Below are positions 36,014 to 47,005 of a stretch of 64,000 nucleotides of DNA, piece by piece. The notes below the pieces were generated by a model. The model worked only from the letters and a program-made list of their open reading frames with translations, was not told where the DNA came from and did no database searches. Both the position numbers and the translations under genes were made by a program. Each line of letters begins with the position of its first letter. Position 1 is the first letter of the stretch. Origin of the DNA: Humibacter sp. RRB41 (lineage in GTDB: Bacteria > Actinomycetota > Actinomycetes > Actinomycetales > Microbacteriaceae); assembly GCF_022761015.1 (NCBI RefSeq), contig NZ_JAKWJQ010000001.1, positions 248,001-312,000 on the forward strand, written 5' to 3'.

Positions 36014-37489
36014 ATGTTCGCCACGTACTTGAGACGTGAACTCAGCAACCGCAAGAAACAGAGCATCATCATCGCGATAGGCATGGCCTTGGCGATCGCG
36101 CTCGTCATCCTGGTGAACGGGGTGTCGGCCGCCGTCAAAGACGCCGAGACCACCGCGCTCTCGTCGGTGAACGGTGTCGGCACGGACATCACCATCAGCA
36201 AGACGGCGAAGCCGGGAAGCGGCAACCAGAGGTTCGCCTTCGGCTCCGGCGACCAGTCGAGCGCCAGCGACGGCAGCACCAAGCTGTCGCAGAGCACCCT
36301 GGCCGCGGCCATGGGAACGGCGACCTACAGCTCGAGCGCACTGAAGAAGGTAAAGGCGGTCGACGGCGTCTCCGCCGCCACCGCGACCCTGTCGCTGCGC
36401 AACAGCACTTTCTCTGGGCAGATCGCCCAGGGCTCGGGCACATCCGGTGGCGGCACGACGGGTCAATCCGGGGCCGGCGGCGGAGCTCCCTCCGGCGCGT
36501 CCGGCACGGGCGGATCGGGCCCGAGCTCGTTCAACGTCGACTCCTTCTCAGTCGCCGGTATCACGCCGGGCACCACCAAGGTCGGTCCGATGAGCTCGAC
36601 CGAGCTGAGCAGCGGCCGCTACCTCAAGGCGAGCGACGACGGCACGTACGTGACCGTTCTGGATGCCAGCTACGCGAAGAGCGAAAGCCTCAAGGTGGGC
36701 AGCACCCTGACCATGGGCGGCAAGAAGTTCACCGTGGTCGGCATCGTGAAGTCCACGTCCTCCGACTCGACCACAGCATCGAACACGTACATCCCGCTCG
36801 ACACCGCGCAGAAGCTCGCGGATCTCGACGGCAAGGTCTCGAACATCTACGTGAGCGCGGCATCCGCCGGCGACGTCGCAACACTGAAGACGGCGCTCGA
36901 GAAGGTGCTGCCGAGCGTGACCGTCAACACGCAGGCCGACCTGGCATCCAGCATCTCCGGCTCGCTGTCGACGGTGTCGACGCTCGTGGCCAACCTCGGC
37001 ACCTGGCTTTCACTGCTCGTGCTGGCCGCGGCATTCCTGATCGCGGTGCTCTTCACCATCTCGGGCGTCGGCAGGCGCACCAAGGAGTTCGGCACGCTGA
37101 AGGCGATCGGCTGGAGCAACGGACGCATCGTGCGCCAGGTCACCGGTGAGTCGCTCGTCAACGGGCTGATCGGTGGCGCCATCGGCACGGTCGTCGGCAT
37201 CGCCGCCATCGTCATCGTCAACCTCATCTCCCCGACGCTGTCGACAGACGGGGCGACAGCGGGTGCGGCCGGCGGGGCGGGAGCACCAGGCGGAGGCGGT
37301 GGAGCACCTGGTGCGGCCCAAGCCGCGAGTTCGGCGGCCACAGCGATCTCGCTGCACATTCCGTTCACCGGCGGCATCGTGCTGATCGCCGTCGGGCTGG
37401 CCGTGCTCGGCGGCCTCATCGCCGGAGCGTTCGGCGGATGGCGTGCCGCTCGACTTCGCCCGGCCGAAGCCTTCAGGAGCGTCGCGTGA
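36014..37489 (+). CDS. ABC transporter permease, MacB/FtsX type
   Basis: A 491-residue permease with one N-terminal helix (IIIAIGMALAIALVILVNGV), a large extracytoplasmic MacB-PCD domain, and three C-terminal helices of the FtsX fold (TKEFGTLKAIGWSNGRI is the coupling segment). The extracytoplasmic part carries a Gly/Ser-rich linker (about 140-175), and another Gly/Ala-rich stretch (about 410-440) lies between the last helices. AAGGAG precedes the ATG by 5 bases. It forms an exporter or mechanotransmission complex with the ATPase at 37587; its substrate is unknown. Confidence 0.88.
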   Translation: MFATYLRRELSNRKKQSIIIAIGMALAIALVILVNGVSAAVKDAETTALSSVNGVGTDITISKTAKPGSGNQRFAFGSGDQSSASDGSTKLSQSTLAAAMGTATYSSSALKKVKAVDGVSAATATLSLRNSTFSGQIAQGSGTSGGGTTGQSGAGGGAPSGASGTGGSGPSSFNVDSFSVAGITPGTTKVGPMSSTELSSGRYLKASDDGTYVTVLDASYAKSESLKVGSTLTMGGKKFTVVGIVKSTSSDSTTASNTYIPLDTAQKLADLDGKVSNIYVSAASAGDVATLKTALEKVLPSVTVNTQADLASSISGSLSTVSTLVANLGTWLSLLVLAAAFLIAVLFTISGVGRRTKEFGTLKAIGWSNGRIVRQVTGESLVNGLIGGAIGTVVGIAAIVIVNLISPTLSTDGATAGAAGGAGAPGGGGGAPGAAQAASSAATAISLHIPFTGGIVLIAVGLAVLGGLIAGAFGGWRAARLRPAEAFRSVA

Positions 37490-37590
37490 TGCCCGCCCCA
37501 CGCCACCCGAACGATCACCGAAGCGACGATCCCCGAGACGACAAGCACCGAGACGACAAGCACCGAAACGACAAGGAAGCACACCGATGA
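37489..37590 (+). CDS. 33-residue Asp/His/Arg-rich linker ORF between exporter genes
   Basis: The ATG at 37489 overlaps the permease stop (TGATG), and the TGA at 37588 overlaps the ATPase ATG (ATGA), so this frame fills the spacer exactly. The product begins MPAPRHPNDHRSDDP and continues with the 5-residue repeat R-D-D-K-H, R-D-D-K-H, R-N-D-K-E, encoded by a 15-base unit repeated three times. It may be a real metal- or nucleic-acid-binding micropeptide or just a coupling frame; the repeat keeps all frames open, which weakens the case. Confidence 0.4.
   Translation: MPAPRHPNDHRSDDPRDDKHRDDKHRNDKEAHR
37534..37578 (+). repeat. 15-base tandem repeat, three units
   Basis: Three consecutive units of the form CGAGACGACAAGCAC, the last one diverged (CGAAACGACAAGGAA), lie between the permease and ATPase genes. 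A unit length divisible by three means copy-number change would not alter the frame. Confidence 0.7.
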
Positions 37591-38309
37591 CCGACACACT
37601 CGCCATGCCGAGCGCACCAGAAGAACAGTCGATCGGCGACGCCTACGTGCTGCGCGGAGTCACCAAGACCTACACGCAGAAGGGCAGGACGGTGCAGGCG
37701 CTGCGCGGGATCGACCTGGAGATTCCACGCGGTCAGCTCGTGGCGGTCCAGGGCCCGACCGGCGGCGGCAAGTCCACGCTGTTGCAGATGCTGGGCGCGC
37801 TCGACCGGCCGACATCCGGATCGGTCCAGATGGGTCGAAACGACCTGTCGACGGCGAACGACAAGGAGCTGGCGAAGATCCGCGGGGTGGAGATCGGATT
37901 CGTCTTCCAGGGCTTCAACCTCATACCGACGCTGTCTGCAGCGGAGAACGTGGAGACCGCGTTCGCGACGAACGAGCTGCCGCGGGCCGAGCGCAGGCGG
38001 CGCAGTGCGGAGGCACTGGCATCCGTCGGCCTGCAAGATCGGGCGGACCATCTGCCGGCCGAGCTCTCCGGCGGTCAGCAGCAGCGTGTTGCCATCGCAC
38101 GGGCGCTCGTCAAGGAGCCGACCGTGCTGCTGGCGGACGAGCCGACGGGCGCTCTCGACGAGGGAACGCGCGACGAGATCATGGCGCTGCTCGAGAAGGT
38201 CTGGCACGAGCGGTTGCTGACAGTGGTGATCGTCACGCACGACTCGGCTGTCGCGCGGCGGGCGGAGCGTCGGCTGCGCATCAAAGACGGCGCGATCAAG
38301 GAGGTGTGA
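37587..38309 (+). CDS. ABC transporter ATP-binding protein, MacB/LolD type
   Basis: A 240-residue ATPase: Walker A GPTGGGKST, Q-loop FVFQGFNLIPTLSAAENV, signature ELSGGQQQRVAIARALV, Walker B VLLADEPTGALD and H-loop VTHD. This is the standard partner of the MacB-type permease upstream. The ATG at 37587 is preferred because AAGGAAG lies 8 bases upstream; the frame is open further upstream through the tandem repeat. Confidence 0.9.
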   Translation: MTDTLAMPSAPEEQSIGDAYVLRGVTKTYTQKGRTVQALRGIDLEIPRGQLVAVQGPTGGGKSTLLQMLGALDRPTSGSVQMGRNDLSTANDKELAKIRGVEIGFVFQGFNLIPTLSAAENVETAFATNELPRAERRRRSAEALASVGLQDRADHLPAELSGGQQQRVAIARALVKEPTVLLADEPTGALDEGTRDEIMALLEKVWHERLLTVVIVTHDSAVARRAERRLRIKDGAIKEV

Positions 38310-41483: not shown

Positions 41484-41562
41484 GCGGGTCCTTTCGTAGT
41501 GGTGTTCAATGGCGCAGTTGCGCGGCGAGCGTCGGCGAGGGAGTCCCGCTGGCTGGGCGGCC

Positions 41563-41568
41563 TACGAT
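41563..41568 (+). promoter_or_regulatory. -10 box of leaderless tetR promoter
   Basis: TACGAT lies exactly 6 bases before the ATG at 41575. Confidence 0.5.
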
Positions 41569-41574
41569 GTCAGG

Positions 41575-42216
41575 ATGAGCGACGGTCGGGCGAGCGAGGA
41601 TGCCGCCCCGCGTCGGTCGTACGCGAAGGGCATCGCTCGGCGCAAGCAGATCATCGAGAGCGCCATTGCGGAGTTCGCCGATCACGGCGTCGACGGCACG
41701 TCGCTGCGCACGCTCGGCGATGCGATCGGGGTCTCGCACGCCACGCTGAGGCACTACTTCGCCTCGCGTGACGAGCTGCTCGTCGAGGTCTACCGGGCGC
41801 ACGAGCAGAGCACGGTCGGCGAGATGCTCGAAGCCGCGAAGCACGATGCGACAGCCGTCGAGGTGATGGCCGCGAGCGCCGAGCGCAACCGGTCGATCCC
41901 GGGACTCGTGCGCCTCTACGCGACGCTCTCGACCGATGCCCTGCAGGAAGGGCATCCGGCGTCCGAGGCGTTCATCAAGGAACGTTTCGAGGGTCTGAGG
42001 ACCGTGCTGGCGGAGCGGATCCGCGACGACCAGGCGGCGGGACGCATCGCGGGCGACATCGACCCGGCGGATGCCGCAGCCCTGGTCATCGCAGCCTCCG
42101 ACGGTCTGCAGGTGCAGTGGCTGCTCGCGCCGGACACCGTGGACGTGCGGCGTTCTCTGGCGCTGCTGGAGCGCATCCTGCCCGCTCCGGCCGGCGACGA
42201 GCGCTCTATCGACTGA
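41575..42216 (+). CDS. TetR-family transcriptional regulator
   Basis: A 213-residue TetR regulator: helix-turn-helix TSLRTLGDAIGVSHATLRHY (about residues 42-61), then FASRDELLVEVY, and a BetI/TetR_C_6-like C-terminal domain. The start is chosen on the TANNNT box 6 bases upstream and on the family N-terminus. It is divergent from the GH3 beta-glucosidase gene, so it may repress the beta-glucoside operon; the MMPL gene downstream on its own strand is another possible target. Confidence 0.87.
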   Translation: MSDGRASEDAAPRRSYAKGIARRKQIIESAIAEFADHGVDGTSLRTLGDAIGVSHATLRHYFASRDELLVEVYRAHEQSTVGEMLEAAKHDATAVEVMAASAERNRSIPGLVRLYATLSTDALQEGHPASEAFIKERFEGLRTVLAERIRDDQAAGRIAGDIDPADAAALVIAASDGLQVQWLLAPDTVDVRRSLALLERILPAPAGDERSID

Positions 42217-42399: not shown

Positions 42400-45237
42400 A
42401 TGTCGTCCTTTCTCTACAGTGTCGGGCGATGGGCCTACCGTGCCCGCGCGTTTGTGCTCACGGGCTGGCTGATCGTGCTGGCCGTCGCGATCGCGTGTGC
42501 GGCGCTTCTCGGCACCGGCACGCAGAACACCTATGCGATTCCGGGCACGGAATCCCAGCAGGCGCTCGATTCCCTGGCCCGCACCTTTCCGCAGATGAGC
42601 GGGGCGACGGCGCAGCTTGTCGTGGTCGCGCCGAAGGACTCCACTGTGCGGGAGTCGTCGTTCGAATCGGCGGTCGACGCGAGCGTGAAGCGACTCGCCG
42701 CCATTCCGCAGGTCGCGTCGGTCACGTCGCCGTACGCATCCTCGTCGAGCGCGAATATCAGCTCGGATGCCTCGGCAGCCATCGTTCCCGTACAGCTCAC
42801 GGTCGTGCAGAGTCAGGTGAAGCCGTCGACGGCCGACGCGCTGCAGGCGGAGGCCCATCGCTTGCAGAAACAGCTCCCTGCCGGTTCGCAGACGGCCATG
42901 GGCGGCCAACTCTTCTCACAGACCGCCGCGGGCATCAGCGTGACGGAGCTGCTGGGCATCGCCGTCGCGTTCGGCGTTCTCGCGCTCACCTTCGTCTCTC
43001 TGCTCGTGGCGTCGATGCCATTGATCACGTCGCTGCTGGGCGTCGGGGTGGCGCTGGCCGTCATCCTGGCGATGACCTCCATCACGACCATCACGTCGAC
43101 GACGCCACTGCTCGCCCTGATGCTCGGCCTCGCCGTCGGCATCGACTACGCGCTGTTCATCACCTCACGACATCAGGACCAGGTGCGGCACGGCGTCGAT
43201 CCGCAGGAGTCTGCCGCGCGCTCGGTCGCGACGGCGGGGTCCGCGGTGGTGTTCGCCGCCGTCACGGTGATCATCGCCCTGCTCGGGCTGAGCGTGGCGG
43301 GCATCCCGTTCCTCACGACGATGGGGGTGGCATCCGCCGGCGCCGTCGCACTGGCAGTGCTCGTGTCGCTCACGCTCACCCCTGCGCTGCTCGGCTTCGC
43401 GGGATGGCGCGTCGTGCGTCGTCGATATCGGCCGGGCGAGAGCGAACGGATGCCCCGCAGCAAGCGAGCGCAAGCGCGCAAGGCACGCCGTGAGCAGGCC
43501 GCCGCGCACGCCGCCGCGGAGGGCCAAGCCACGCGCCCGCCGCGATTCTTCCTCGGATGGGTGCGCGGCGCCACCAAGTGGCCGGTGGTCACGATCGTGG
43601 TCATCGTCGCGGGGCTCGGCCTGCTCACTCTGCCGATGACGCATCTGCGGCTCGCCCTCCCCGACGCGGGTTCGCTACCGGCCGGCGAGCCGGGACGTGT
43701 GGCGTACGACCTCATCGACGAGCACTTCGGACCCGGATACAACGGGCCGCTGATCATGACCGGGTCGATCATCCAGAGCAAAGATCCGGTCGGACTCATG
43801 AACGACCTCGGCGCGAGCATCGCGAAGGTGCCGGGCGTGGTCGCTGTGCCGCTCTCCACGCCGAACCAGGGCGGCGATACGGGCGTGGTGCAGGTCATTC
43901 CCAACGGTTCCCCCGACTCCGTCGCGACCGAGCAGCTGGTCGCGCGACTGCGCGCCATGCATACCACGTTCCAGAAGGAGTACGGCGTCGATCTCTCCGT
44001 CACCGGATACACCGCGGCGGGCATCGACGTGTCGGAGCGGCTCGGGCAGGCGCTGCTGCCGTTCGGCATCCTGGTCGTCGGGCTGTCGCTCGTGCTGCTT
44101 GCGATGGTGTTCCGATCGATCGTCGTGCCCGTCACGGCCGCGCTCGGCTACCTGCTCTCGATCGGTGCCGCCTTCGGGTTCACCAGCCTGGTCTTCGAGA
44201 ACGGGTTCCTCGCAGGGCCGCTCGGCGTCGCATCCCTCGGGTCCGTGATCAGTTTCATGCCGATCATCCTGATGGGTGTGCTGTTCGGACTGGCGATGGA
44301 CTACGAGGTGTTCCTGGTCAGCCGCATGCGCGAGGACTACGTGCGCCACGGCGACGCGCACTCCGCGATCCGCACAGGATTCCTCGGCTCGGCCCGCGTG
44401 GTCACGGCCGCGGCGATCATCATGTTCGCGGTGTTCGCCGCGTTCGTGCCAGAAGGCGACGCGTCGATCCAGCCGATCGCGCTCGGCCTCGCGGTCGGCG
44501 TCGCAATCGATGCGTTCGTGGTGCGCATGACGCTCATCCCGGCCGTGCTCACGCTGTTCGGAAGACACGCCTGGTGGATGCCCCACAGCCTCGACCGCGT
44601 TCTGCCGCACTTCGACGCGGAGGGTGAAGGGATCGCCCTCGAACTCGAGCTCGCGAACTGGCCCAACGATGCCGGCGAGCTCGCGATCGCCGCATCGGAT
44701 GTCTCGATCCAGAGGTCCGGCCTCGACGTCGTCACCGGCTTCAGCGCTCGCGTGCCGTACGGCGACGTGCTGGTGGTGCGATCGGACGACCGTATGGCGG
44801 GGGCGGCGCTCGTCGCGGCGATCTGCGGTCGCCGGCCGGCGGCATCCGGAAGGCTCAAGGTCGATGGATACGTTCTGCCATCCAGGAGCGGCGCCGTACG
44901 CGGACGGTCGGGCGTCGTGCCGTTGCGCGGCGCGCTCCGACCGGTCGACCGGGCGAGAATCGTGCTGCGCAGCGGGGTCGCGCTGATCGGGCTCTGCGAC
45001 ATCGACGCTGTCGCAGGTGGTCGCGATCGTGCCGCGTTGGCCGCGCTGCTGCAGGATGCCCGTGCCGCCGGCGCGGGAAGCCTGACCGTTGTTGCATCCT
45101 GCGCTGCGGACTCCCCGGTGACGGACGTGCTCGGGACCGAGGGCGTGCACGAAGTGACGATCGGTGGGTCGCCGATCGGTGGGGCGCCGACCGGCGCGGA
45201 GCCCGCGGAGTCTGCTGTGCAAGCGGGGGTGAGCTGA
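42400..45237 (+). CDS. MMPL transporter fused to a degenerate ABC-ATPase-like domain
   Basis: A 945-residue protein. Residues 1 to about 735 are a complete MMPL/RND-type exporter: two porter domains and about 12 helices, with the conserved GLAVGIDYALFI and GLAMDYEVFLVSRM segments carrying the proton-relay Asp-Tyr pairs. The remaining 210 residues are cytoplasmic and resemble an ABC nucleotide-binding domain (ASDVSIQRSGLDVVTGFSA, then GDVLVV). The Walker A position (about 793-803) reads VRSDDRMAGAA with no GKS/T, and a Walker-B-like ALIGLCDIDAV follows, so ATP hydrolysis is unlikely. AAGGGGG precedes the ATG. The YhgE/Pip gene follows after one base. Confidence 0.87.
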   Translation: MSSFLYSVGRWAYRARAFVLTGWLIVLAVAIACAALLGTGTQNTYAIPGTESQQALDSLARTFPQMSGATAQLVVVAPKDSTVRESSFESAVDASVKRLAAIPQVASVTSPYASSSSANISSDASAAIVPVQLTVVQSQVKPSTADALQAEAHRLQKQLPAGSQTAMGGQLFSQTAAGISVTELLGIAVAFGVLALTFVSLLVASMPLITSLLGVGVALAVILAMTSITTITSTTPLLALMLGLAVGIDYALFITSRHQDQVRHGVDPQESAARSVATAGSAVVFAAVTVIIALLGLSVAGIPFLTTMGVASAGAVALAVLVSLTLTPALLGFAGWRVVRRRYRPGESERMPRSKRAQARKARREQAAAHAAAEGQATRPPRFFLGWVRGATKWPVVTIVVIVAGLGLLTLPMTHLRLALPDAGSLPAGEPGRVAYDLIDEHFGPGYNGPLIMTGSIIQSKDPVGLMNDLGASIAKVPGVVAVPLSTPNQGGDTGVVQVIPNGSPDSVATEQLVARLRAMHTTFQKEYGVDLSVTGYTAAGIDVSERLGQALLPFGILVVGLSLVLLAMVFRSIVVPVTAALGYLLSIGAAFGFTSLVFENGFLAGPLGVASLGSVISFMPIILMGVLFGLAMDYEVFLVSRMREDYVRHGDAHSAIRTGFLGSARVVTAAAIIMFAVFAAFVPEGDASIQPIALGLAVGVAIDAFVVRMTLIPAVLTLFGRHAWWMPHSLDRVLPHFDAEGEGIALELELANWPNDAGELAIAASDVSIQRSGLDVVTGFSARVPYGDVLVVRSDDRMAGAALVAAICGRRPAASGRLKVDGYVLPSRSGAVRGRSGVVPLRGALRPVDRARIVLRSGVALIGLCDIDAVAGGRDRAALAALLQDARAAGAGSLTVVASCAADSPVTDVLGTEGVHEVTIGGSPIGGAPTGAEPAESAVQAGVS

Positions 45238-45238
45238 C

Positions 45239-47005
45239 GTGTCCGGGAATCCGTTGTCTGCGCTGTCGGGAACGGAGCGGCCCCGCACGGTGATGCTCGC
45301 CGTGGTGGTCCTTCTACCCCTCCTGATCGGAATGATGCTCACGTGGGGGCTCTCCACGCCGGCGCTGCACCTGGACCGCGTTCAGGCCGCGATCGTGAAC
45401 GACGACGTGCCCGTCACGATCAACGGCACGACGACACCGCTCGGCCGCCAGTTCGCGGCGGGGCTGATCGCCGGTTCCAGTCCGAACGAGGACGCCCCGA
45501 CCCAGGCCACCCGAGTCGGCTCGAACTTCGACTGGGTGCTGACGAACGACCAGGATGCCTCCGACGGCCTCGCGAGCGGACGGTACGCCGCGGTCGTGAC
45601 CGTTCCCGGCGCGTTCTCCACGTCGATCAGCTCGCTGTCCGGGCCGGCGCAGAGCGCGGTGCCGACGCTGGTCCAGGTGAGGACCAGCCCGTCGGCCGCG
45701 CTTCTGGATCCCGCGCTCGTGCAAGCGGTCACGGCGACCGCCACCGCGCAGCTCAACCAGCAGATCGTGGACCAGTATCTGCAGGGCGTCTACCAGGGCT
45801 TCAACTCTGTGCACGACCAGATCGCGCAGGCGTCGTCGGGGGCGACGCAGGTGGCATCCGGTGCGGACTCGGTGTCGAGCGGCGCGCAACAGCTGAACTC
45901 GGGCGCGCAGTCGCTGTCGTCCGGCCTGAACACGCTCGCGTCGCAATCCGCGAGCCTGCCGGATCAGACCGCTCAGCTGGCGGATGGCGCGGGCCAAGTG
46001 AGTGCGGCGACGCAAGGCATCTCGTCGTCGGTCTCGTCTGCCGCGTCGTCGTTCGCACCCGTCGTGGCGCAGATCTGCCAGCATCCGGGGGCGGTGTGCG
46101 ACCAGGCGACGGCGGCGCTCGCGAAGTTGCAGAGCGCGTCGTCGAGCGCGAGCCAACTCGCGTCGGGGGCAGGAGCCGTGGCATCCGGCTCGTCGGCACT
46201 CGCGGCAGCGATGCCACAACTCGTGGGCGGCATCGATCAGGCGGCGTCCGGTGCCTCGTCGCTGGCGAGCGGTGAGGCGAGCCTCGCGTCGGGTGCCGAT
46301 CAGGTCGCCAGTGGTGCCGACCAGCTCGCTTCGGGGCTGGCGCAGGCGGTCGACAAGATTCCGTCGTACTCCGATTCGGACATCCAGGTGCTGTCGTCGA
46401 CCGCGTCGCAGCCGGTCGTGATCGATCCGCGTTCTGCGCCGTCGGGCATCCAGGCGGCACCGTTGTTCACGCTGCTCGGGTTGTGGATCGGCGGCCTGGT
46501 GCTTGCACTGGTGCGCAAGTCGGTACCGCAGTCCCGGCTGCTCACCAGCGCACCGTCGCTCGGGCTTGCTGCACGATCGGCCGGAATCGGCGCCGCGCTC
46601 GGCGCCGCCCAGGGACTGGTGCTCGGAGCCGTGGTGCTCCTCGGGTTGGGTCTCGCGCCTGGTGTGTGGGCGGGATACCTGGGTACGTCGGTGCTTGTCG
46701 GTGCCGTCTTCGCAGTCGTGAACCAGGGTCTCGTGGCCGCGTTCGGTGCGGTCGGACGCCTGCTCGCCGTGCTCGTCGGCGTCGTGGCCCTCGCCGTGGG
46801 CATCTCGTCGACGGTGCCTGCGTCTCTGGCCGGTGTCGCGGCCGCCTTGCCGACATCACCTGCGCTCTCGGCGCTTCGTGGTGCCGTCACGGGCGAACCG
46901 GCGCTCGCCGTGCAGGCCGGAGTGCTCGTTGTGCTCTGGGGCATCGGGGGGATCGCGCTCGTGTTCGCCGGCGTCGTTGCGCGACGGCGGCTTCGCGTGG
47001 TGTGA
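45239..47005 (+). CDS. YhgE/Pip-family membrane protein
   Basis: A 588-residue protein of the YhgE/Pip group, ABC-2-exporter-like. It has one N-terminal helix, a large extracytoplasmic region of about 370 residues, then five to six C-terminal helices. The extracytoplasmic part contains runs of a 7-residue pattern such as LASGADQ, V-A-S-G-A-D-x and L-S-S-G-L-x-x (about 195-250 and 320-365), predicting a long coiled structure. The GTG follows the MMPL stop with a one-base gap. Homologues are involved in phage infection and ESX/type VII-like export, but their function here is unknown; the pairing implies a joint exporter. Confidence 0.85.
   Translation: MSGNPLSALSGTERPRTVMLAVVVLLPLLIGMMLTWGLSTPALHLDRVQAAIVNDDVPVTINGTTTPLGRQFAAGLIAGSSPNEDAPTQATRVGSNFDWVLTNDQDASDGLASGRYAAVVTVPGAFSTSISSLSGPAQSAVPTLVQVRTSPSAALLDPALVQAVTATATAQLNQQIVDQYLQGVYQGFNSVHDQIAQASSGATQVASGADSVSSGAQQLNSGAQSLSSGLNTLASQSASLPDQTAQLADGAGQVSAATQGISSSVSSAASSFAPVVAQICQHPGAVCDQATAALAKLQSASSSASQLASGAGAVASGSSALAAAMPQLVGGIDQAASGASSLASGEASLASGADQVASGADQLASGLAQAVDKIPSYSDSDIQVLSSTASQPVVIDPRSAPSGIQAAPLFTLLGLWIGGLVLALVRKSVPQSRLLTSAPSLGLAARSAGIGAALGAAQGLVLGAVVLLGLGLAPGVWAGYLGTSVLVGAVFAVVNQGLVAAFGAVGRLLAVLVGVVALAVGISSTVPASLAGVAAALPTSPALSALRGAVTGEPALAVQAGVLVVLWGIGGIALVFAGVVARRRLRVV

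Follow-up and report, generated by a model that had tools for sequence, protein, structure and literature searches.

A predicted degenerate ABC nucleotide-binding domain fused to an MMPL transporter next to a YhgE/Pip gene in Humibacter sp. RRB41

Exporters of the ATP-binding cassette (ABC) type and those of the resistance-nodulation-division (RND) type count as two distinct classes, each with an energy source of its own. In the stretch of 64,000 nucleotides from Humibacter sp. RRB41 that is considered here (contig NZ_JAKWJQ010000001.1, positions 248,001 to 312,000; "the window" denotes the whole of it), one gene appears to carry both a proton-driven pump of the RND-type MMPL family and the remnant of an ABC motor. 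It is directly followed by a gene for a YhgE/Pip protein, and this pair is the subject of the present study.

The closest described systems each resemble one part of the pair. Among the mycobacterial RND exporters of lipids and drugs, these are MmpL3, the exporter of trehalose monomycolate, and MmpL4 and MmpL5. The proton-relay role of two Asp-Tyr pairs is taken here from work on MmpL3, and the coiled coil of the MmpS5L5 tube belongs to MmpL5 itself. SbmA has no nucleotide-binding domain (NBD) and is itself a proton-driven protein, while for the YhgE/Pip proteins we know of no established transport role. A coiled-coil tube in the periplasm has been reported to serve MmpS5L5 (PMC12501195), ABC-2 homologues of the PIP family (TC 9.B.74) have already been noted (PMC3924187), and SbmA/SLiPT, a transporter akin to ABC membrane domains, draws its energy from the proton gradient (PMC13316013). 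In the literature searched, outside which lie most subscription journals, neither an NBD partner for YhgE nor an MMPL-NBD fusion was found described; the text available on both YhgE and MMPL does not describe the pairing as a system.

The C-terminal tail of the MMPL protein

The MMPL gene (42400-45237, + strand) encodes 945 amino acids, with the following parts.

42400-44601, + strand: MMPL (RND-type) transporter part, residues 1-734 (PF03176, E 6.5e-81; MmpL3 alignment)
43144-43149, + strand: Asp249-Tyr250, first presumed proton-relay pair, aligned with the DY of MmpL3
44299-44304, + strand: Asp634-Tyr635, second presumed proton-relay pair, aligned with the DY of MmpL3
44602-45237, + strand: predicted degenerate ABC NBD, residues 735-945, without helical subdomain; core about 759-924 (AlphaFold2 model, VIA-align)
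44782-44805, + strand: lost Walker A, SDDRMAGA, residues 795-802; some orthologues read GPHRSGKS, GGHHSGKS or GEHRTGKS
44827-44901, + strand: conserved segment between the P-loop helix and the Q-loop strand, residues 810-834, with G810, R811, G817, P827 and R834
44980-45012, + strand: Walker-B-like strand ALIGLCDIDAV, residues 861-871; Cys866 takes the place of an Asp found in 84% of the P-loop-free relatives

The transporter part has the MMPL profile and an MmpL3-like architecture: residues 9-733 align with residues 6-739 of MmpL3 (7nvh, E 7e-46), and both Asp-Tyr pairs are intact. Judged from its length, the protein seems to be without a coiled-coil insertion.

The original prediction, made from the letters of the DNA, took the tail for a degenerate ABC NBD fused to the pump, and fold searches as well as a profile of orthologous tails bear this out. 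An AlphaFold2 model, built on a 39-sequence alignment of the window and orthologous tails, has a predicted local distance difference test score (pLDDT) of 85.6 and a predicted template modelling score (pTM) of 0.76. Its top Foldseek match is an ABC ATPase (E 2.9e-9). Judged by title or known identity, ABC proteins fill 48 of the 50 listed rows, and two rows are titled 'Mitochondrial outer membrane protein'. With VIA-align, positions 59-224 of the model (protein residues 759-924) superpose on the ABC ATPase 4yer_A with Z 16.0 (160 residues, 2.5 A), and by the same criteria each of the 50 rows listed is an ABC protein. The predicted structure shows the ABC NBD fold of a RecA-like core with a beta-subdomain, and not an unrelated fold. 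At the level of sequence, a profile of 29 orthologous tails matches ABC NBDs of solved structure (best 2.8e-8), the 60 PDB matches listed, out of 436, being all ABC proteins, and the cutoff of Pfam ABC_tran is passed by four of ten orthologous tails scanned (L012, L015, L016, L018). The tail of the window taken alone (about the last 210 residues) has no Pfam match, a weak NodI match (E 0.07) and two insignificant PDB matches, to dihydrofolate reductase (E 0.82) and to the ABC protein Uup (E 0.96); it is too diverged to give a significant sequence match on its own. That the tail is an ABC nucleotide-binding domain is thus strongly supported by the model and by its relatives. A chance resemblance was ruled out by the tail profile, the ABC_tran matches and the fold matches.

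The motifs that had been read by eye lie where they were said to be: ASDVSIQRSGLDVV at residues 765-778, GDVLVV at 788-793, RSDDRMAGAA, which stands in place of GKS/T, at 794-803, and ALIGLCDIDAV at 861-871. A motif scan of the whole tail of the window found no 'GK', no GxxxxGK[ST] and no 'SGG'. An intact Walker A elsewhere in the domain was looked for and none is present; the same scan rules out that the tail conceals a Walker A or an LSGGQ at another place. LSGGQ had been described as not seen, and this is correct as far as it goes; the motif is not merely degenerate, as the helical subdomain that carries it is gone, with 37 residues between the 'LKVxG' of beta3 and Walker B versus 83-122 in 55 free-standing relatives. 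The Walker B of the window reads Cys-Asp and there is no catalytic Glu. Among 168 NBDs of the group formed by tails and free-standing relatives, none has an LSGGQ-like motif, so that no canonical ABC dimer site is to be expected, and a single one has Asp-Glu at Walker B. This sole case is a tail from Sediminivirga luteola (L045:7047-7844), which has the pair yet has lost its P-loop.

What has been kept is a different set of residues. In 56 short tails without a P-loop, G810, R811, G817, P827 and R834 are conserved at 0.95-0.98 (R811 and R834 at 0.98) and the linker residues W754 and P755 at 0.96 and 0.93; the P-loop columns are conserved at 0.21-0.71.

Linkage to YhgE, free-standing relatives and selection

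In the family of the window, each of the 76 MMPL genes with a tail that were examined adjoins YhgE, so that the domain and the gene pair, whose conservation had been left to be checked, are both present in orthologues. These are L001 and L003-L031 (30 loci), L098-L103 (6) and L214-L253 (40), two of which (L103, L240) have tails that are unrecognised by the NBD profiles. Of 20 domain-free MMPL genes taken from the same search, not one lies within about 6 kb of a YhgE gene. The 20 domain-free regions and 40 of the tail-bearing ones were hand-picked from the listed rows of the MMPL search; among the 20, L200 and L210 have 139-145 unrelated residues after MMPL with no NBD profile match, and in L209 MMPL is weak and broken into three frames. 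Fisher's exact test of tail against YhgE adjacency gives 4.6e-21, a descriptive value and not a proof, the rows being related. The tail and YhgE occur together. In the genome of Humibacter sp. RRB41, MMPL matches are found at four places and a tail with a YhgE neighbour only at that of the window. The nearest of 22 named loci is that of Humibacter albus (72% identity, best segment). An artefact of assembly or annotation is ruled out by the recurrence of the fusion in independent genomes; the window is also no isolated oddity, the architecture being common in its family.

The origin of the tail is indicated by its closest relatives outside the pump. A tail profile was run against 396 genomes of the phylum, with the best 8 first-look candidates per genome scored, so that genome counts are lower bounds. 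Outside long MMPL-type frames, the strongest matches are free-standing ABC-like genes, and 13 of 13 of the strongest (L085-L097) lie directly upstream of a YhgE gene. As the closest free-standing relatives directly precede YhgE, the tail seems to descend from YhgE's own NBD. Most likely, a proton-driven pump captured the ATPase subunit that belonged to YhgE, and what is left of it probably serves as a docking module.

The same association is seen from the side of YhgE. A YhgE profile, with the best 3 first-look candidates per genome scored, finds the protein in at least 91 of 296 genomes of the class. In 60 regions hand-picked from the listed YhgE places, genus g91 being deliberately under-sampled, there are 64 YhgE genes: 42 directly follow a free NBD gene, 16 follow an MMPL gene with a tail, and 6 have no partner detected by profile. 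Two of the MMPL tails before YhgE (L172, L184) are unrecognised by the NBD profiles, and L152 was scored as 'none' by profile, despite a degenerate NBD that is legible to the eye there. YhgE in this class thus usually has an NBD partner, free or fused. With 58 of 64 genes next to an NBD or an MMPL fusion, the reading of YhgE as an ABC-2-like permease that usually has such a partner in this class is supported. Two loci (L138, L141) have two tandem NBD-YhgE cassettes, as if for a heterodimeric exporter. L155 and L156 have tandem YhgE-like genes with no profile-detected NBD adjacent, and upstream of them, by eye, argininosuccinate synthase-like and TetR-like genes. The only other strong YhgE match in the genome of Humibacter sp. 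RRB41 lies outside the window (L134, G000:C1:454600-463500); this YhgE is preceded by a TetR-like open reading frame, recognised by eye, and by a free NBD with a lost P-loop (AETEQRPS).

Extant genomes hold most of the intermediates between such an ATPase and the tail of the window, which means that the path by which an ATPase became a non-catalytic part can be traced and put to the test. The presumable order has five steps. Free full-length NBDs with GKT (for example L085, L086, L088, L089) or GRT (L087, L090-L097) come first, then full-length NBDs with GKT that are fused to MMPL (L084, L135, L136, L174, L176), and then fused full-length domains without a P-loop (L099-L102, L151, L178 and others). 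In the fourth step the fused domain has its helical subdomain deleted and GKS/T retained (L008, L010, L015, L016, L018, L160, L218), and in the fifth, to which the window and most others belong, the P-loop is lost as well. The five loci of the second step are the best candidates for a hybrid that still binds ATP. A clade of fused short tails (L223, L224, L226, L227, L229) has only 30 residues between beta3 and Walker B.

The P-loop was counted over the 168 rows, which include redundant species. The 55 free NBDs comprise 7 with GK, 31 with GR and 17 others; the 37 fused long ones, 5 with GK and 32 others; and the 76 fused short ones, 7 with GK, 3 with GR and 66 others. Neither a Glu after Walker B nor LSGGQ is found in any of the 55 free-standing NBDs. 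Since these relatives are already catalytically odd, decay seems to have begun before the fusion or apart from it.

Motif loss appears to have been repeated. A tree of 105 rows was made from the MMPL residues with the tail excluded. As near-identical species or members of the same genome, L004, L035, L037, L038, L039, L041, L044, L048, L050 and L052 were left out of both this tree and an earlier one of 66 rows, and of the conservation count; L002 was additionally left out of the 105-row tree, and the dropped rows except L002 are in the 168-row table. The state of the P-loop changes at least 8 times on the tree (G[KR][ST] versus none) or at least 7 times (GK[ST] versus not); the 66-row tree had at least 6 changes for GK versus not. 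These changes are probably losses, not regains, as where L005 and L006, with the P-loop lost, are sisters of L010 and L016, which have GKS. The helical subdomain changes state at least twice, or once if L184, an outlier with a long branch, is misplaced. Across 103 domains, G[KR][ST] at Walker A and an acidic pair at Walker B (the Asp followed by another Asp, a Glu or an Asn) covary, with 14 having both, 85 neither and 4 mixed. By independent pairs the covariation is not significant: starred branches yield 4 such pairs, and the median p of the sign test is 0.125.

Among 21 pairs of relatives, the tail has a ratio of non-synonymous to synonymous substitution rates (dN/dS) of 0.06-0.55 in 20 and of 0.84 in one (L234/L178); for MMPL the ratio is 0.03-0.28 across the same pairs, and dS is saturated in one of them (L019/L026). 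By these rates, the tail is constrained, more loosely than MMPL.

The YhgE partner and the possible role of the tail

The YhgE/Pip gene has a GTG start at 45239, one base after the stop codon of the MMPL gene at 45237, and the spacing of one base that had been given for the pair is therefore right.

45239-47005, + strand: YhgE/Pip protein, 588 amino acids, with an N-terminal transmembrane helix, an extracellular domain, a long heptad coiled coil and a C-terminal transmembrane bundle (TIGR models, AlphaFold2 model)
45689-46357, + strand: predicted coiled-coil helices of YhgE, residues 151-373 (AlphaFold2 secondary structure, local pLDDT 57-82)

Besides the family models TIGR03061 (E 6.4e-24), TIGR03062 (E 7.8e-16) and TIGR03057 (E 6.1e-16), the protein matches TIGR03929, the model of EsaA (E 3e-12, 46.5 of 122 bits). 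Residues 151-373, predicted as long helices, are read as a probable coiled coil. An AlphaFold2 model from 20 sequences (pLDDT 76.1, pTM 0.49) superposes by VIA-align on ABCG-type membrane domains, with Z 16.8 for Pdr5, 16.5 for ABCG1 and 16.4 for ABCG5, over 213-224 residues at 3.4-4.0 A (for the match of Z 16.8, 213 residues at 3.5 A). By title or known identity, the 50 listed rows (Z 13.3-16.8) are without exception ABC transporters of the ABCG, ABCH or PDR kind; VIA-align warns that helical models may reach Z of about 13-14 without kinship, and the match is its re-alignment of Foldseek's own list. Because the 50 rows listed agree and a related YhgE (L183) passes Pfam ABC2_membrane_3 (PF12698, 80.4 bits), YhgE is predicted to share the ABCG-type (ABC-2, type V) membrane fold. 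Its likeness to ABC-2 permeases, already noticed in the original prediction, is in this way supported.

On balance, we regard it as rather probable that the two genes form one exporter, in which an MMPL pump captured the ATPase of an ABC-2-like exporter and the dead remnant docks the YhgE permease. The tail would bind the cytoplasmic face of YhgE at the usual seat of an NBD and hold YhgE at the pump, MMPL and YhgE being one complex. Docking is the favoured role because residues 810-834 are near-invariant and because the corresponding stretch of an NBD runs into the part that contacts the permease. The exporter would be powered by the proton gradient, by way of MMPL, and not by ATP, since the Asp-Tyr pairs are intact and the ATPase is not. 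The long extracellular coiled coil of YhgE would supply in trans a cell-wall-crossing element, which MmpL4 and MmpL5 have in cis. The substrate may be hydrophobic or lipid-like. In Saccharopolyspora hirsuta, YhgE and MMPL genes with neighbouring tags (F1721_04135, F1721_04140) are both induced by cholesterol, by 3.82 and 3.33 (PMC9782250), and the fused form is present in two other Saccharopolyspora species (L034, L035). A fuller version can be put forward tentatively: a hybrid RND-ABC exporter, whose ABC-2 permease was switched from ATP to the proton gradient, with its own ATPase as the adaptor welded to an RND pump and the coiled coil as a conduit across the Gram-positive cell wall.

A number of observations weigh against the docking of a captured ATPase. 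Without the helical subdomain, the groove that receives the coupling helices of a permease misses one wall, and docking would have to be atypical. No GK[ST] is present in 48 of the 55 free NBDs beside YhgE; free-standing NBDs being already degenerate, the fusion to MMPL is not the sole cause of decay. Conversely, 12 of 113 fused NBDs retain GK[ST], some with an Asp pair at Walker B, and nucleotide binding may still matter in these. In 19 of 21 pairs the tail has a higher dN/dS than MMPL, often by a factor of two or more, which fits relaxed constraint too. Six YhgE genes (L152, L155 twice, L156 twice, L183) are without a detected partner. YhgE itself stays below the curated cutoffs of TIGR03061 (84.4 of 96.15 bits) and TIGR03062 (58.3 of 102.2 bits), and Foldseek alone gives its model no match at E of 0.001 or less. 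Finally, the Saccharopolyspora hirsuta genes are 2 of 28 induced genes listed (PMC9782250), and it is in other members of the genus that the fused form was seen.

The alternative that survives best, which we nevertheless consider unlikely, is a pure tether: the dead NBD would only join YhgE and MMPL for assembly or localisation, with MMPL transporting and YhgE serving as a passive coiled-coil extension, MmpS-like or EsaA-like. The EsaA match of YhgE is in line with this, as is its top Foldseek row, a weak match (E 4.8e-3) to a chain of the MmpL5-S5-AcpM complex 9mvz; the drift of the P-loop columns with retention of the segment before the Q-loop would suit a tether as well. A passive extension is at odds with the transporter-like membrane fold that the C-terminal part of YhgE keeps in the model, and with the own NBD that YhgE has in many genomes, as for a moving permease.

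A nucleotide sensor is a good deal less probable. Tails with GKS/T would bind ATP or ADP and regulate the pump, that of the window being a decayed sensor. This would account for the GK[ST] kept in 12 of 113 fused domains and for the covariation of Walker A and Walker B, which comes down to four phylogenetically independent pairs; the P-loop is absent from most members, the window included, and the LSGGQ-like motif from all. Just behind the sensor we place an ATPase acting in trans, by which YhgE would be driven by a shared ABC ATPase encoded elsewhere and the tail would be an unused relic. Shared ATPases are known for some ABC systems, a first look with the NBD profile gave 130 candidates in the genome of Humibacter sp. 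RRB41, of which 8 were scored, and a few YhgE genes (L155 twice, L156 twice, L183) have no adjacent NBD. A relic is difficult to reconcile with purifying selection on the tail and with its position beside YhgE in 76 of 76 loci; moreover, the other strong YhgE match of the same genome has its own P-loop-free NBD. The least credible explanation, that tail and pairing are leftovers without present function, draws on the looser constraint on the tail and on the repeated loss of catalytic motifs, and has against it the dN/dS of 20 of 21 pairs, the near-invariant residues, the confident fold and the 20 domain-free MMPL genes, none of which adjoins YhgE.

Two further genes of the window can be mentioned.

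41509-42216, + strand: TetR-family regulator (TetR_N, PF00440, E 7.8e-12), directly upstream of the MMPL gene on the same strand
37443-38309: MacB/LolD-like ABC ATPase with intact motifs, used as a normal NBD for comparison

From its position, the TetR-family protein may regulate the MMPL and YhgE pair. A TetR-like open reading frame was found in 7 of 102 loci by a one-sequence phmmer search, which is too insensitive to count either way, and a consensus search for promoters and terminators found none.

Comparison with known systems

All parts of the locus come from known families, and their combination is apparently new, at least to us. Like MmpL3, MmpL4 and MmpL5, the protein of the window has an MMPL part, aligned with MmpL3 over residues 9-733 and with both Asp-Tyr pairs. 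Unlike these, it ends in a predicted ABC NBD remnant, its partner is YhgE and not MmpS, and the coiled coil is predicted in the partner and not in the MMPL protein. That partner is tied to the YhgE/Pip (phage infection protein) family, and to the EsaA protein of type VII secretion, by its TIGR03061, TIGR03062, TIGR03057 and TIGR03929 matches, the first two of which stay below their curated cutoffs. In fold, the YhgE model resembles the membrane domains of ABCG1, ABCG2, ABCG5/8 and Pdr5 (Z up to 16.8), and the pairing of YhgE with an NBD gene in related genomes is that of ABC-2, or type V, exporters. It differs from them in that the predicted NBD sits on an RND pump and has no P-loop, LSGGQ or helical subdomain, and in that YhgE would bear a long extracellular coiled coil. 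With SbmA/SLiPT there is a functional analogy only, an ABC-like membrane protein on the proton gradient; in the window a separate RND pump would supply the drive. For the YhgE/Pip proteins this offers a role that can be tested, that of ABC-2-type permeases which in this phylum have NBDs of their own, and the comparison suggests that these bacteria have joined two kinds of exporter by turning the engine of one machine into a coupling.

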